Source: Hymenobacter sp. BT18 (GTDB lineage Bacteria; Bacteroidota; Bacteroidia; Cytophagales; Hymenobacteraceae). Taken from it: a stretch of 64,000 nt of DNA. Numbering within the stretch: the first letter of the stretch is position 1; the number at the start of each line of letters is the position of its first letter. The notes beneath the pieces are model-generated. The model worked only from the letters and a program-made list of their open reading frames with translations. It had not been told where the DNA came from and ran no database searches. The position numbers were made by a program, and so were the translations under genes. Positions 49,466-55,720 of the stretch are shown one piece after another. The DNA lies in assembly GCF_012273015.1 (NCBI RefSeq), contig NZ_CP050954.1:1426001-1490000 (forward strand). The letters are read 5' to 3'.

Positions 49466-52000
49466 TCAGGCCCGGCGCTTGCGCAGCGTCAGGTAATCGA
49501 GAAAATACAGAACCTTCACCGACAGCGAGTTGCTATGAGGCGTGTTGATTGTGCGGCTCAGGTTGTCGAAGTAAAGGGGCGTCGATTCTTCGGCCAGCAG
49601 CTCATTGGACAGGGCATTCTTCCAGACCACGTTCACCTGGGAGCCGGGCGCAAACCACCAGGAGAAGTTGGCGTCCACGTTGAAAGCATTAAAGGCATTA
49701 TCACGGTTGCGGCGGTAGTCTACCTTCAGTTCCTGCCCCTGGGGGCGCAGCACCGTAAAGTCGTAGTAGTGCACGCTGCTGGTGTAATGGCGCGTGCGGA
49801 TGTTAAACGACATGCGGTTGTTAAACGTGTACGTGCCCGTTATCGTGTTCACGTACGTCATCACGCGTCGCCGCCCCAGCAGGATTTGGCCGGCCGCGGC
49901 CAACGGGCCATCCTGGAACTGGTCGGGGTCGAGGCCGCCATTCACGTAGCCTACCTGGTTGGGACGGGTGTTCCACTCGAAGTTGTAGCGAAAGGACAGC
50001 TGGTTGCTTACCCGGTACCGGGGGCTTAGGCTGACGCCATACCCCGTGCGCCGCGGCCGGATGCCATCCCGCTGAAACCACCGCCCGGCGGTTGATAAGT
50101 CAAACGCCAGCTTTTTGCGGTAGTCCGTGGAGATAAAGCCGTTGCCGCCGACGTTGGCCGGAAACCGCACGTAGTACGTGCCAATTTCGGTGCGGGGCTC
50201 AAAGTAGTCGTGGGCCTGCGCCGTGTAGTCGCCATTGAAGCCCACGGTGATAAAGCTCTTGGTAAACGTGGTATTGCCCCCGAAGTAGGCTCCGGCGCTG
50301 GTGTAGGCCGTGGGCCGGTACAGCAGCCGGTGCTCCAGCACCAGGTAGCTATAGGCGTTGTTTACTTTCCAGAATGGCTTGAAGCGGTTGAAATTGAGCT
50401 CCGCCACCTGCGAAATGGAGTTGTTGCTGAACAGGATGCCCAGGTCGTTGGGGTTATAGCCGTTGGATTCGATACCCTGGCTCAGGCGCCAGGTAAAGCC
50501 CCCGCTGATTTTGCCCACTCCCAACAGGTACTTATACCCATCCTGGTCGCCTACCTCGGTATCGGAGTTGAAGTACTGCCCGCGCCGCCGCGAGTACACC
50601 ACCTGCCCATCCACGGCGTAGGAGTTTTTCTTGTTGGCCAGGCGAAACAGGCCGCCCGTCACGTTGGCGTCGTAGGTGCTACCCTGGCGCGTCACGTTGG
50701 TGTTGATCAGCGACACATACGAGTTGTTTTTCAGACTCTGGTCCAGCACGAAAATGTTGTAGTTGGCCAGAGGCTGTGTCAGAATGCGGCGCTGCTCGCC
50801 CTGCTCATCTTCGGCCGTGGCATACATGTTTGCCGCTACGGCGTTGAAGAGGCCCACGCCCAGCCCCTTGCTGGTGCGCCCCGATATCTTGGTGGCATTC
50901 AGCAGCCGGCTTTCCCCGGGGTTTTGCACCAACCGTTCCCCCGGCTTCAATTGCCCTTCGGCGTCGTAAAAGCCCATAGGCTGAGCTCCCACGCGGCGGG
51001 AGTAAAACAGGTTGCCTTTGTTGAACAGCTCCGTGCCTTCGGTAAAGAACTGGCGGTTCTCGTTGTACTGCACTTCAAACGGCGTCAGGTTTAGCACCCG
51101 GTTGTCGCTCACGGTCTGTCCAAAGTCCGGCACCAGTGTAGCATCCAGCGTAAAGCTTTCGTTGATGCCCCACTTCACATCGGCTCCTCCATTGACGCTC
51201 GTGCTGGTGTTGCGCACGCCCTGCTGTTTGTAGGGATAGTGGTTGACATAGGTAGAAATGTAGGGCGTAAACGAAAGCCGCAGCGGAGCTTTGATGTCGC
51301 GGATGCCCACCAACTCGCCCCATTGGTTCAGGAAGCCGTTGACCTCGGGCTTCACCTCGCTCCAGAAAAACCCTTGCCGCAGAATCTGGCGGTTGCGCAT
51401 GAAGTTCAGCCCCCACACCTGCTCCTGCTGGGTGCTGAAGCGAATGGCGGAATAAGGAATGCGCAGCTCGGCCACCCAGTCGGTGCCGCGCAAGGCCGTC
51501 CGGCTTTCCCACACGGCATTCCAGTTAAAGTCTTCTCCTCCTGCAGGAGAATAGCGGGCATCCATCTGCACGCCGGAGGGTGTCACAAAGAAGCCGTAGC
51601 CATTAAGCTTGTCGTGGTAGGTATCCAGGAAAATGCCGAAGAAGTCGGTGTTGCCGATATCGTCGCGGGCGCCCAACTCCCGGGGTATTGAGTCCAGTGA
51701 GACATCATGCATGATAGCTCCCACGTAGAGGGCCGCATCATCATAGAGGATGCGTACTTCTGTGGGGTGCTTCTCGTGGGGGCCGGGGTTAGGCCTATTC
51801 TGAATAAAGTCGGTGGCAACGGGTGCCTGCTGCCAGACGGCCTCATCCAGTAAGGCATCCAGCTTAGGCGCTGCCGTGGTGATGCGGACGGCTTGTAGCT
51901 GCCGTACGGCCGCCGGAGCCGGCGAAGCAGCAGTTTGGGCCAGGGCGCTGCTGAGCATACAGCTCAGCCCAGCCAGCAACAGAAGGCCTGCACGTAACAT
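49466..52000 (-). CDS. DUF5916 protein with N-terminal CBM9-like domain
   Basis: The 844 residues start with a signal peptide (MLRAGLLLLAGLSCMLSSALAQ). A CBM9-like sugar-binding-type domain follows at about 35-230 (PKLDALLDEAVWQQAPVATDF, EVRILYDDAALYVGAIMHD, DTYHDKLNGYGFFVTPSGVQ). After that comes a long beta-rich region consistent with an outer-membrane barrel (FFTEGTELFNKGNLFYSRRVG, LSPRYRVSNQLSFRYNFEWN). This is the DUF5916 arrangement common in Bacteroidota; its role is unknown. The ATG at 52000 is used; upstream open codons overlap the terminator of the next gene. Confidence 0.85.
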   Translation of the reverse strand: MLRAGLLLLAGLSCMLSSALAQTAASPAPAAVRQLQAVRITTAAPKLDALLDEAVWQQAPVATDFIQNRPNPGPHEKHPTEVRILYDDAALYVGAIMHDVSLDSIPRELGARDDIGNTDFFGIFLDTYHDKLNGYGFFVTPSGVQMDARYSPAGGEDFNWNAVWESRTALRGTDWVAELRIPYSAIRFSTQQEQVWGLNFMRNRQILRQGFFWSEVKPEVNGFLNQWGELVGIRDIKAPLRLSFTPYISTYVNHYPYKQQGVRNTSTSVNGGADVKWGINESFTLDATLVPDFGQTVSDNRVLNLTPFEVQYNENRQFFTEGTELFNKGNLFYSRRVGAQPMGFYDAEGQLKPGERLVQNPGESRLLNATKISGRTSKGLGVGLFNAVAANMYATAEDEQGEQRRILTQPLANYNIFVLDQSLKNNSYVSLINTNVTRQGSTYDANVTGGLFRLANKKNSYAVDGQVVYSRRRGQYFNSDTEVGDQDGYKYLLGVGKISGGFTWRLSQGIESNGYNPNDLGILFSNNSISQVAELNFNRFKPFWKVNNAYSYLVLEHRLLYRPTAYTSAGAYFGGNTTFTKSFITVGFNGDYTAQAHDYFEPRTEIGTYYVRFPANVGGNGFISTDYRKKLAFDLSTAGRWFQRDGIRPRRTGYGVSLSPRYRVSNQLSFRYNFEWNTRPNQVGYVNGGLDPDQFQDGPLAAAGQILLGRRRVMTYVNTITGTYTFNNRMSFNIRTRHYTSSVHYYDFTVLRPQGQELKVDYRRNRDNAFNAFNVDANFSWWFAPGSQVNVVWKNALSNELLAEESTPLYFDNLSRTINTPHSNSLSVKVLYFLDYLTLRKRRA

Positions 52001-52136
52001 TGAATAGAAAAATAGAGGTGAAAACCGATAGAAAGCCGGAAAGAAAAGCCAGGACCAAGGACCGCCGGCAGAAAAGCTGTGCTGCCATAGATGGGGACTG
52101 CGGGCCAACCGTTGCCTGCCGCCGGGCAATGGGCAT

Positions 52137-52172
52137 AAAAAAACCGGCGCCTGATTGTGACGCCGGCTTTTT
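52137..52172 (-). terminator. Terminator of the blaI-M56 operon
   Basis: On the minus strand CCGGCG and CGCCGG (with A/T extensions) surround an 11-nt loop, followed by T7. It lies just after the M56 stop at 52180. Confidence 0.85.
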
Positions 52173-52179
52173 ACATCCA

Positions 52180-54798
52180 TTACTCACTCACTGAAATCTG
52201 GACGGTTTGTTTGCGCTTCTGCCCGGGCGTGGGTTCCGGCACATCAAGCAGGCGGCGGTACTTGCGGGCCATGGCCGCCGATTGGGCTTTCCCGTTCACG
52301 GTCAGACCGTCGTCGTTGAGCTGAAACTGAAAGCTCTTTTCCGTGGCTCCGAGCAGGCCATCCTTGCGCAGCTCCGCCCGAATCTCGTCGGAATCCATGT
52401 GCGGCGGGGCAGGTGGGGCGGGCGGCGCCGGGGCAGCATGGTGCGGAGGTGCCGGTGGCGCTGGTGCCACAGCCAGATGCGGGGCCCGCGGAGCGCGAGG
52501 AGGCTGCGGAGGCCGGGGTACCGTACCCGAGTAATTAATATTGGTGCTGGAGTTGCGCGTCACTACAAACGAGCCCGTATTGAGCTTACGGCCAGTTTTT
52601 TCGGCAAAGAGGCGGAGGTACTTGTCGCGCAGGGCCGCCGACTGCTTTTTGCCGTTCACGGTCATCTCGCGGGCATTCAAGCCAAGCTGGTAGTGGTTCA
52701 GGTTCTTGATTAGCCCGTCACGGAGCAGCTGCTGGGTCAGGGCACTTTCAAATTTGCGGTCTTCCCGGTTCCGGACAGCATCCGCCCGGCGCAGCGCTTC
52801 GTCGTGGCGGCGCATTTCCTCGTCCTGGCGCTGCAGGGCGCGGTCGTGGTCCAGCATTTCCCGGTCAAAGTCCCGCATTTCCCGGTCGTGCTCCCGCATG
52901 GCTTCATCGTGCAGGCGCATGGCTTCGTCCATTTGGCGCTGCTCCTGGTCGCTCAGGCCTTCGTGCCGGGCTTCGTCCAGTTCTTCCTGCTGTTCCCGTA
53001 GCCGCTCCTGGCGCTCCTGCAGCCGTTCCTGAGCTTCTTCAATCCGGTCCCGCTCTTCCTGGGTCTCGGCTTCCCGGTAGGCTTGGTCGAGTTTGCGCTC
53101 TGCCAGTCGTAAGGCCTCGCGGGTTTGCTCCTGCCAGTCGGCACCCGCGCCGTTGCTGTTTTCCCAGTTAAAGCTGAACGTATGGCCCGAGCCGTTTTGG
53201 AGGCGAGAGAGTTGGCGGAGCTTCACCATATCCTTTTTGCTGGGCCCCGGCATCGGGAAACGCTGCGGGGTGCCGTTATCAAACTGGAAGTTGAAGTCCG
53301 GGTTGCCCTGATTACGGAATACGTAGCCATTGGGCGCCACCCGGATAACCTCCGTGGTGGTCTTGCCTTTCTTGCCGGCTTTCGAGGCAGTTTCTACCGG
53401 CTGGCCATTCACCATCAGGTTGGTTACGCGGCCTTTCTTGTCCTTTTCGATTACCACCGTGTTGGCCCCCCGACCGGGCATCATCCCCGGAGCGGGGGCA
53501 TCAACGATGACAACCTGCTCATTGGCTCGGCCGCGCTTGGTCTTTTGGCGAGACTTTGGATCATCCTCCTGCAGCTCATCTACCTCAACCTGGGCGGGCA
53601 CCTTCGCTACCTGGGGCGCTAATTCAGATACCACCTGCTGTTTGGTCGTATCATCGGCCATAAATGAGGCCGGCAACAACGTACCGAGGGGGTTTTGGGG
53701 ATGAGCCAGTGGACGCGGGTCGGCCAGGGCCACGGCCGTGCTCAGAAGCATAAAGCCTCCCAGCACCACGCAGGCTGCCATAAACCCTTCGGTAAAGGTG
53801 GGCGCGGTGCGGCCCTGCACCAAGCGACGGACCCGGCTCAGCAGCGTGCCCCGGCTCCCTACGGCGGCCATGGCCAGCTGCGGAGTCAGGCGGGGCGCAA
53901 GGTTGAGCTCGGCCAGGGCCGTGAGGGCCCGGGCCAGCGTCAGCGGGTTGCCACCCACGAGGGCCGTGGCCGTATCGTCGCAGCAGTTTTCGCGCTCTAC
54001 GCGCAGCGTCGCCGTCACAAACCACACGGCGGGATGGTAGAAAAACAGGATTTCGGCTACCGACTGCACCAGGTTCATGAGGTAGTCGCGGCGGGCTACG
54101 TGGGCCAGCTCATGCGCCAGAATAGCCTCCAGATAGGTTTGGCTAAGCCCCGTAACCGTGCCGAGCGGCAGCAGAATCACGGGCCGCAAGTGGCCTACCA
54201 CCATGGGGACGCGCACCAGCGCCGATTCCAGCAAGGCCACCGGCCGCTGCAGATTGGCCTTTTCAGCCAAGGTACCCAAGCGGCGCTGCCACTCCAGGCC
54301 CAGGGGCTGCACGCGGTAGTGGCGCAAGCGCTGCACGTAGGCAAGGCCCCCCAGCAAGCGGAGCGTCATGGCCAGCAGCCCGAGCAGCCAGGCCGTCACG
54401 AGCACGGGCAGGTTCTGATCAAAATACTGCTGCCAGGTGGCAATCTTGCCAACGGGCTCCACAGCTGCTGTAGGTGTAGCGGTAGATGCGGCCTCCTGCG
54501 TGGGTTGCCAAGCAGCCAGCCGGATATCAGCAGTATCTGCCGGCAGTTGCAGGGTTGAAGGTACTTCCGTGAGGGCAGCGTAGTAGTAACGCGCGAAGGT
54601 GACGGTAGCCAGCAGCAGCATGGTACCCAGGGCCAGACCGGCTACGCGGTAGCGCACGGCGGCGCTGTGCTTGCGCAAGAGCAGCAGCAGCCCGCCTAAG
54701 GCCAGGGCTACTACTGCCCCCTGCCACAAGGAGTGGACGAGCGTCCAGCCCAATGCCCGAACCAGCGCGGGCGACAACGTTTGTTCAAGCCAGTTCAT
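52180..54798 (-). CDS. M56-family membrane metalloprotease with heptad coiled coil and tandem 'TVNGKxQSAA' modules
   Basis: The 872 residues begin with the BlaR1/MecR1-type membrane protease: helices at about 20-42, 50-68, 130-152 and 330-352, the zinc site AHELAH (HELAH 229-233) and ENCCDD (E270). The part after the last helix is not a penicillin-binding domain. It holds a Glu/Arg-rich helical region, seven exact heptads with Met/Leu first and Asp fifth (627-675), and a module LxRDGLI...TVNGKxQSAA...KYxRL repeated twice around a Pro/Ala-rich linker. Its start overlaps the blaI stop by 4 bp (ATGA), so translation is coupled. By family it should cut the repressor after sensing a signal; the signal is unknown. 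Confidence 0.9.
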   Translation of the reverse strand: MNWLEQTLSPALVRALGWTLVHSLWQGAVVALALGGLLLLLRKHSAAVRYRVAGLALGTMLLLATVTFARYYYAALTEVPSTLQLPADTADIRLAAWQPTQEAASTATPTAAVEPVGKIATWQQYFDQNLPVLVTAWLLGLLAMTLRLLGGLAYVQRLRHYRVQPLGLEWQRRLGTLAEKANLQRPVALLESALVRVPMVVGHLRPVILLPLGTVTGLSQTYLEAILAHELAHVARRDYLMNLVQSVAEILFFYHPAVWFVTATLRVERENCCDDTATALVGGNPLTLARALTALAELNLAPRLTPQLAMAAVGSRGTLLSRVRRLVQGRTAPTFTEGFMAACVVLGGFMLLSTAVALADPRPLAHPQNPLGTLLPASFMADDTTKQQVVSELAPQVAKVPAQVEVDELQEDDPKSRQKTKRGRANEQVVIVDAPAPGMMPGRGANTVVIEKDKKGRVTNLMVNGQPVETASKAGKKGKTTTEVIRVAPNGYVFRNQGNPDFNFQFDNGTPQRFPMPGPSKKDMVKLRQLSRLQNGSGHTFSFNWENSNGAGADWQEQTREALRLAERKLDQAYREAETQEERDRIEEAQERLQERQERLREQQEELDEARHEGLSDQEQRQMDEAMRLHDEAMREHDREMRDFDREMLDHDRALQRQDEEMRRHDEALRRADAVRNREDRKFESALTQQLLRDGLIKNLNHYQLGLNAREMTVNGKKQSAALRDKYLRLFAEKTGRKLNTGSFVVTRNSSTNINYSGTVPRPPQPPRAPRAPHLAVAPAPPAPPHHAAPAPPAPPAPPHMDSDEIRAELRKDGLLGATEKSFQFQLNDDGLTVNGKAQSAAMARKYRRLLDVPEPTPGQKRKQTVQISVSE
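52774..52920 (-). repeat. Seven exact heptad repeats in the M56 protein
   Basis: Codes for residues 627-675: seven consecutive 7-residue units of the form [ML]-x-x-x-D-x-x, rich in Arg, Glu and His. They are flanked by more irregular coiled-coil sequence on both sides. This predicts a long parallel coiled coil in the periplasmic part. Confidence 0.85.
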
Positions 54799-55212: not shown

Positions 55213-55228
55213 TACGAATCAGTTCGTA
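55213..55228. promoter_or_regulatory. Predicted BlaI operator 1 (TACGA-N6-TCGTA)
   Basis: TACGAATCAGTTCGTA, a 16-bp palindrome with 6-bp perfect arms (TACGAA/TTCGTA). It lies just downstream of the -7 box, over the predicted start of transcription. Confidence 0.8.
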
Positions 55229-55231
55229 CTT

Positions 55232-55263
55232 CAAACATATACGAAGCATATCGTAGAAGCAAA
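55232..55263 (-). promoter_or_regulatory. blaI promoter TTTG-N20-TATGTTTG
   Basis: On the minus strand the -33 TTTG is at 55263-55260 and the -7 TATGTTTG at 55239-55232, spaced 20 bp, both exact matches to the Bacteroidota consensus. Operator 2 fills the spacer; operators 1 and 3 lie on either side. Confidence 0.8.
55240..55255. promoter_or_regulatory. Predicted BlaI operator 2 (TACGA-N6-TCGTA)
   Basis: TACGAAGCATATCGTA lies within the spacer between -33 and -7, abutting the -7 box. Its right arm also forms TCGTAGAA-N9-TTCTACGA (55251-55275) with the left arm of operator 3. Confidence 0.8.
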
Positions 55264-55270
55264 TTTATTC

Positions 55271-55286
55271 TACGATTTATTTCGTA
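55271..55286. promoter_or_regulatory. Predicted BlaI operator 3 (TACGA-N6-TCGTA)
   Basis: TACGATTTATTTCGTA lies upstream of the -33 element. The three sites start 27 and 31 bp apart, on nearly the same face of the helix if the repeat distance is three turns. Confidence 0.78.
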
Positions 55287-55351: not shown

Positions 55352-55720
55352 CTACCGTTGCCCGCCCCGCTTCCGCACCAGCGTAATCTGGGCCCGGTGA
55401 CAGATACCGCCCAGGGGTGGGTTGAACTTGGCCACCTTCACTTTCACGGAGCGGATGTGGGGAAACTCCTCCATCACCCGATCAATAACGCGGTAACCCA
55501 GGTGCTCCAGCAAGCGGGCCGGGGCCAGCATTTCCTCCCGCACTACCCGGTACAGCACTTCGTAGTTGACGGTTTGCTGCAGGTTGTCGGAGGCCCCCGC
55601 CGCGTGTAAATCCGTGCGGATGTAGAGGTCAACCCCGTACTTATTCCCGATTTTCTGCTCCTCGTCGTAGTAGCCGTGGAATGCGAAAAACTCCATGCCT
55701 TCCAGTGCAATCTGCCCCAT
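55352..55720 (-). CDS. folB: Dihydroneopterin aldolase
   Basis: FolB cleaves 7,8-dihydroneopterin to 6-hydroxymethyl-dihydropterin in folate synthesis. The 122 residues are of standard length: GQIALEGMEFFAFHGYYDEEQKIGNKYGVDL, with the conserved Tyr in HGYYDEE, NYEVLYRVVREEM with the catalytic-region residues, LLEHLGYRVIDRVMEEFP and VKVAKFNPPLGG with the catalytic Lys. It lies in the same direction as blaI but upstream of the blaI promoter, so the operator array sits in its 3' region. Confidence 0.93.
   Translation of the reverse strand: MGQIALEGMEFFAFHGYYDEEQKIGNKYGVDLYIRTDLHAAGASDNLQQTVNYEVLYRVVREEMLAPARLLEHLGYRVIDRVMEEFPHIRSVKVKVAKFNPPLGGICHRAQITLVRKRGGQR

Follow-up and report, generated by a model that had tools for sequence, protein, structure and literature searches.

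The window, by which we mean the whole analysed stretch of 64,000 nucleotides, contains on its minus strand a presumed operon that begins with a gene of the BlaI type and continues with the genes for an M56 membrane metallopeptidase and a protein with CBM9 and DUF5916 domains (Table 1). The repressor belongs to the Penicillinase_R (BlaI/MecI/CopY) family, since its PF03965 score exceeds the curated cut-off, and its relatives by sequence in the Protein Data Bank are 2g9w, BlaI (1sd4, 1xsd, and 1p6r), and MecI (1okr, 1sax, and 1sd6). Furthermore, the M56 peptidase gene adjoins the repressor gene, as in BlaR1/MecR1-type systems. On this 872-amino-acid peptidase, the Pfam matches were to the M56 and M48 models only and a penicillin-binding sensor domain was not found; the NCBIfam model blaR1_generic scored 80 of 400 bits and covered residues 132-282 only. 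Two look-alike stretches are seen by eye in its C-terminal part, around DGLIKNLNHYQLGLNAREMTVNGKKQSAALRDKY and DGLLGATEKSFQFQLNDDGLTVNGKAQSAAMARKY; they have no Pfam match and are a possible sensor part.

The classical scissile bond of BlaI and MecI is N-F (N101-F102). In a phmmer alignment to MecI, this position corresponds to Q-A in the window BlaI, and Q-A or R-A is found there in twelve aligned rows. It is thus doubtful that induction involves cleavage there, and the relief step may differ from that of the bla/mec systems. The window BlaI scored 42.1 bits with the CopY equivalog model TIGR02698 (cut-off 121.95), and its 132 residues include no cysteine, hence no Cys-X-Cys metal motif.

Table 1. 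Genes, promoter elements, and palindromic sites of the blaI locus (window coordinates)
Feature	Position	Strand	Remarks
blaI (group A), BlaI/MecI/CopY-type winged-helix repressor, 132 aa	54795..55193	-	PF03965, 86.1 bits (cut-off 22.6)
M56 membrane metallopeptidase, BlaR1-like peptidase part	52180..54798	-	HELAH motif; PF05569, 100.8 bits; 4-base overlap with blaI
CBM9 and DUF5916 protein, third gene of the presumed operon	49466..52180	-	PF19313, 682.7 bits; PF06452, 38.3 bits
Predicted operator site 1, TACGAATCAGTTCGTA	55213..55228	no strand	exact; immediately past the -7 element, where it would span the transcription start
Predicted operator site 2, TACGAAGCATATCGTA	55240..55255	no strand	exact; inside the -33/-7 spacer; conserved in group A promoters
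Predicted operator site 3, TACGATTTATTTCGTA	55271..55286	no strand	exact; upstream of the -33 element; group A promoters have three sites in 74 of 85 cases
-7 element, TATGTTTG	55232..55239	-	gap between sites 2 and 1; Bacteroidota-type promoter
-33 element, TTTG	55260..55263	-	gap between sites 3 and 2
folB	55352-55720	-	

The 158-bp intergenic stretch between folB and blaI carries three 16-bp palindromes of the form TACGA-N6-TCGTA. As the initial annotation had described, all three are exact, and they are the only exact copies in the window. It considered three such sites within 74 bp very unlikely by chance; 100 dinucleotide-preserving shuffles gave no exact match. The consensus promoter proposed with them also reads as described on the minus strand, with TTTG followed by 20 bases and then by TATGTTTG; this arrangement matches the TTTG/TAnnTTTG promoter type of Bacteroidota. 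The TACANNTGTA core of family operators is absent here, the operator being TACGA-N6-TCGTA with a variable centre.

Conservation of the sites and predicted operator classes of BlaI paralogues

We examined a genus sample of 81 genomes, consisting of the BT18 genome and 80 others drawn from the genus. Group A, with at least 66% identity to the window BlaI, is present in all 81 genomes with 85 genes; it is set apart from the other BlaI proteins by a wide score gap (169 versus 52 bits) and, with all 85 hits above this gap taken, is complete for these genomes. All 85 genes have exact N6 sites within 300 bp upstream, three in 74 cases and two in 11, and TACGA dyads with any other spacer from 0 to 12 were not found there. 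In a further set of 80 named loci (57-87% identity, the best being from Hymenobacter), at least one exact N6 site lies within 250 bp of the group A blaI in 79 and at least two in 78, and none has a dyad with another spacer (2 to 11). However, 44 of the 80 are from Hymenobacter or Hymenobacteraceae and overlap the genus sample, several of their contigs having the same length as contigs in it; they are thus not independent of that sample. Among the other 36 loci, which come from Pontibacter, Phaeodactylibacter, Saprospiraceae, Flammeovirgaceae, a Bacteroidales metagenome-assembled genome (MAG), and others, including a record labelled Aminicenantes, exact N6 sites are present at 35 and number two or more at 34. 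The exceptions in the named set are L338, which has no site, and L342, which has one exact and one near site. Dyads over the repressor's own promoter, expected for the BlaI/MecI/CopY family, are therefore present upstream of 85/85 and 79/80 group A genes. The contig filed as a Candidatus Aminicenantes MAG (L319) carries a group A blaI (63% identity) with N6 sites and is perhaps a misbinned Bacteroidota contig.

A match to M56 follows the group A blaI on its 3' side in 79 of the 80 named loci, and the single miss (L327) is at a contig end. Of the 44 Hymenobacter and Hymenobacteraceae loci, 32 have the DUF5916 gene in the flank downstream, as against none of the 36 others; some of the flanks are incomplete.

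At the level of the order, tandem N6 pairs separated by 3-10 bp occur in 77 of 291 genomes, among the matches listed, as compared with 1 of 291 for a reversed-pattern control. Among the 62 listed pairs from outside the genus, 59 stand directly before a group A blaI: in 53 cases a listed gene follows within 400 bp, and six more were recognized on inspection (51-54% identity). The remaining three precede a TonB-dependent receptor gene with a MarR gene beside it. The initial annotation had proposed to judge its operator reading by whether the sites are conserved in front of orthologous blaI genes; such conservation is found in the genus, in the named loci, and in the listed pairs outside the genus, and it supports that reading.

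The positions of the sites relative to the promoter are also conserved in the genus. The spacing of the first two sites is 31 bp in 74 group A promoters, and that of the last two is usually 27, 28, or 33 bp. Of the 85 promoters, 81 have TTTG between the last two sites, and 48 have strict TAnnTTTG there. Across 47 gaps of the 27-bp spacing, the columns of TATGTTTG are 91-100% conserved, and the 74 gaps of the 31-bp spacing contain TTG in 73 cases and the full TTTG in 29. Thus, the promoter elements sit in the gaps between the sites, with somewhat changed letters. A spacing of 31 bp is about three helical turns; as the second spacing is variable, there is no strong case for cooperativity. The initial annotation had also pointed out a longer palindrome, TCGTAGAA-N9-TTCTACGA, that links sites 2 and 3. 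This palindrome is present in the window but is not conserved across group A promoters: arms extended by at least 3 bp were found in 7 of 74 promoters with that spacing, as against 10.9% when the sides were re-paired at random, and we rejected it as a conserved element.

Genomes of the genus have one to six BlaI-type genes, among the matches listed. We examined 159 rows of BlaI loci in the genus (30 and 30 from two BlaI listings and 99 fetched), 157 of them distinct, with both duplicates in group D. Clustering at 50% identity gave five groups, of which groups B to E were sampled from part of the listed hits. Each group has its own operator class. Group B has TACGA-N5-TCGTA at 30 of 30 genus loci (two sites at 29) and N6 at none. 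Group C has ACTA-N6-TAGT in 21 of 21, in 20 of them in the AACTA form, and group D has AAC[TG]-N8-[AC]GTT, or AAC-N10-GTT, in all 19 distinct genes, seven of which show AACTG-N6-CAGTT. Both group E loci have TTCTA-N6-TAGAA. Upstream of the 21 genes of group C, the 19 distinct genes of group D, and the two of group E, no TACGA dyad was found.

The second blaI of the BT18 genome (C1:2619082) belongs to group B and is followed by an M56 gene. Close before its start are two TACGA-N5-TCGTA sites, 19 bp apart (C1:2619031-2619064; L019:3032-3065), and no N6 site within two mismatches was found in the 8 kb scanned. The M56 protein of this operon (L019:3439-4974) ends in a stretch resembling the Plug domain of TonB-dependent receptors (PF07715, 29.2 bits). 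Two of the four N5 matches of this genome lie away from group B (L026 and L027), and no complete frame of at least 100 amino acids was found over them.

Outside the genus, 23 group B loci were chosen by hand among the matches listed, mostly the best-scoring ones; N5 sites are found in 20 of them and N6 TACGA sites in none. The three others (L458-L460, 48-51% identity) have AACTA-N6-TAGTT instead. We constructed a BlaI tree of 139 rows, in which group A was sampled at every sixth row and the N5 class has 77 rows representing 67 distinct proteins. The N5 rows form one clade of 76, adjoining AACTA-N6 relatives, with a single exception, L461. As the operator class follows the BlaI phylogeny, BlaI is very probably the binder, and this is our main reason for naming it. 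The exceptional L461 (G338:C146:27310-28310) is a distant BlaI with 44% identity to group B that branches near group D with weak support (0.51); it combines a recognition-helix stretch like that of group B (PPYTTLAS) with an N5 site and is possibly a natural helix swap.

N6 sites elsewhere in the genomes

The initial annotation had suggested scanning the genome for TACGA-N6-TCGTA. In the single-contig genome of 4.69 Mb, we found five exact matches, namely the three blaI sites and a pair in one other intergenic region; about 2.6 are expected from the base composition of the window, and the reversed-pattern control gave one. In the genus, raw counts of N5 and N6 per genome are often equal to or below the reversed control (for example, 9 versus 11 in G007 and 12 versus 14 in G018). 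Raw genome-wide counts are thus near chance, and the case rests on clustering and conservation. Allowing up to one mismatch in the BT18 genome gave 42 sites (37 with exactly one), as against 68 in the reversed control, and the ten one-mismatch loci checked of the 37 overlap open frames of at least 266 amino acids. Since exact sites are few and sites with up to one mismatch are rarer than in the control, the regulon cannot be extended by relaxed matching, which was dropped.

The other N6 cluster of the BT18 genome, a pair at C1:4553930 and 4553953, stands about 60-100 bp before the gene of a TonB-dependent receptor with CarboxypepD_reg, Plug, and OMP_b-brl_3 domains and has a MarR gene on its other side. 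On the fetched locus, the tandem pair before the receptor is at L006:4931-4969, and a one-mismatch N6 site before the MarR gene is at L006:5511-5526. Among 30 MarR loci, one-mismatch sites at the MarR gene are also found in L218, L219, and L243. Tandem N6 pairs with a gap of 0-10 bp were found in 30 of the 81 genus genomes (32 pairs; none for the reversed control), and 24 of the 32 stand at the receptor orthologue. In the gap region of 27 distinct receptor pairs, strict TAnnTTTG is found in 7 and TTTG in 11, and many have TTTA. Receptor genes beside a MarR gene have the exact pair in 18 of 24 cases; in five of the other six, no site with up to two mismatches was found in the stretch examined. 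The receptor target is therefore not universal. Taken together, the best explanation of these sites is that the TonB-dependent receptor gene is a second, unlinked target predicted for group A BlaI, and that the tandem sites follow the receptor gene and not the MarR gene.

The other eight genus pairs include two before S41 peptidase genes (L265 and L471), two before short frames (L247 and L269), and one (L273) before a DUF1800 gene, with an aspartyl-protease-like gene in divergent orientation. In three relatives (L265, L471, and L472), the N6 pairs preceding S41 peptidase genes are 26 bp apart. In L247 and L269, the frames beginning beyond the sites gave no match in Pfam, and a GMC oxidoreductase gene near the L247 pair was rejected as a target because it ends towards the sites. 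N6 sites were also observed before other TonB-dependent receptor-like genes (CarboxypepD_reg and Plug), as a pair in L465 and singly in L467 and L469; outer-membrane receptors thus recur among the possible targets.

Proposed regulation and rival explanations

We consider that the three palindromes are predicted operators for the group A BlaI whose gene follows directly and which would switch off its own operon, and give this reading a probability of about 0.9. What was computed directly is the presence of the sites, their exact conservation, their spacing, where they lie in the promoter, and how operator class correlates with BlaI subfamily; from these we infer binding by BlaI, repression, and proteolytic induction. 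One BlaI dimer would occupy each TACGA-N6-TCGTA dyad, and three dimers would bracket the -33 element, the -7 element, and the start point, so that RNA polymerase could not use the promoter. As the elements are sited in the gaps between the dyads, occlusion of the promoter is the simplest mechanism of repression. In this way, blaI and the genes for the M56 and DUF5916 proteins would be repressed by the product of the first. By analogy with bla/mec, activation of the M56 membrane peptidase might then remove BlaI and lead to derepression. A beta-lactam sensed through a penicillin-binding domain is unlikely to be the inducing signal, because no such domain was found on the M56 protein.

A different regulator could own the sites and also control the blaI operon, one candidate being the MarR-family protein encoded beside the second cluster. 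In the BT18 genome, the MarR gene is indeed flanked by two exact sites and one with one mismatch, one-mismatch sites recur at this gene in the three relatives mentioned above, and in many relatives it adjoins the site-bearing receptor gene. However, among the matches listed, a clear MarR orthologue (at least 60% identity) is present in only 34 of the 81 genus genomes, whereas group A BlaI and its sites are present in all 81. At the best 30 of these 34 MarR loci, the exact pair is restricted to those with the receptor gene next door (18/24), and no exact site was found at those without it (0/6), on which ground we rejected MarR as the binder. Receptor pairs also occur where the fetched flank contains no MarR gene (L248, L251, L254, L264, and L270), and the change of operator class with the BlaI group likewise counts against MarR. 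We therefore regard ownership of the sites by another regulator as very improbable. Still less credible is the idea that the palindromes are recombination sites of an invertible promoter rather than operators. Phase-variable promoters of this kind occur in Bacteroidota, and here inverted-repeat sequences do flank a promoter; but each unit is already a complete palindrome, one of them sits inside the promoter spacer, the conserved TTTG (81/85) is oriented towards blaI, and the length of the spacer tracks the BlaI subfamily.

A third alternative is that groups A and B read the half-site indiscriminately, so that promoters of the N5 and N6 types form a single cross-regulated network. The two groups have the identical half-site TACGA and are co-resident in the same genomes. 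A switch of spacer was nevertheless never seen: N6 is found only at group A (85/85), and N5 only at group B (30/30 in the genus and 20/23 outside, the other three being AACTA-N6). When the spacer changes by one base, one half-site turns by about 34 degrees around the helix, and rigid dimers are usually intolerant of such a shift. Cross-regulation of this kind seems unlikely to us, though less so than the two explanations above, and the one-base difference in the spacer of the shared half-site may keep the circuits of the sister repressors apart.

A more comprehensive view can be proposed, for which we see somewhat better than even odds. According to it, a strict length code operates, in which two BlaI paralogues of one cell share the TACGA half-site and are separated only by the spacer, N6 (across the Bacteroidota sampled) or N5 (across the order sampled). 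Group A would be a regulator of the envelope and not a resistance switch, co-controlling the outer-membrane DUF5916 protein, the TonB-dependent receptor, and, in some species, S41 peptidases.

Novelty and comparison with known systems

In the openly licensed literature, we found no signal, operator, or regulon for the BlaI-type genes of this genus. Among titles and abstract openings of openly licensed articles on BlaI operators, on BlaI in Bacteroidota or Hymenobacter, and on half-site and spacer, neither the TACGA-N6 operator nor the N5/N6 split nor the receptor target was found. We conclude that the kind of system is known, as the repressor family is, and that the operator consensus and the one-base difference in spacer within the family are new to that literature; the surprise lies chiefly in the exact spacer code between paralogues. 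An exact operator can now be assigned, as a prediction, to one large orthologous BlaI group together with a first unlinked target. Furthermore, the paralogues provide a natural series (TACGA-N6, TACGA-N5, AACTA-N6, and AAC-N10) that allows protein sequence to be related to half-site and spacer. It makes testable how a winged-helix dimer sets the distance between half-sites and how cross-talk between duplicated repressors is avoided. In further Bacteroidota genomes, clustered N6 sites should also predict targets of group A.

In the staphylococcal BlaI-BlaR1 and MecI-MecR1 systems, the repressor gene lies next to a gene for an M56 peptidase. The present locus resembles them in that the repressor gene stands beside the gene for a membrane M56 peptidase and in that the repressor is similar to MecI and BlaI of solved structure. 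It differs in that Pfam shows no penicillin-binding sensor domain on the peptidase, the repressor gene is followed by the genes for the M56 and DUF5916 proteins, there is no beta-lactamase, and the operator letters are not of the TACA/TGTA type (PMC7253601).

Clostridium thermocellum BlaI_0696 and BlaI_1845 are described as autoregulating repressors encoded beside BlaR1-type genes; their inverted repeats form ordered arrays and are found at very few promoters (PMC8457756). They have GTCTAT/GACTAT half-sites and two dyads per promoter, whereas the group A promoters of this genus of Bacteroidota have TACGA-N6-TCGTA and mostly three dyads.

The CopY/CopR copper repressors belong to the same protein family, and the CopY_TcrY profile matches the window BlaI at 9.2e-11, far below its cut-off. 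The 16-base cop operator RNYKACANNTGTMRNY, in the form quoted from PMC7253601, can be rewritten in our own alignment as RNYKA-N6-TMRNY. In the same alignment, the half-sites of groups A, C, and E fit the NYKA of this operator, and AACTA of group C fits RNYKA. Unlike the quoted operator, the sites described here have no conserved CANNTG centre and begin with T where that operator has a purine, and a promoter can carry as many as three of them. The initial annotation had regarded the sites as differing from the TACA/TGTA-type operators; this stands for the letters, but the 5-N6-5 frame fits the 16-base operator of the CopY branch, again by our own alignment. The fit of the half-sites to NYKA suggests that group A retains the 5-N6-5 frame of the family with its centre freed, and that the frame of group B is one base shorter.
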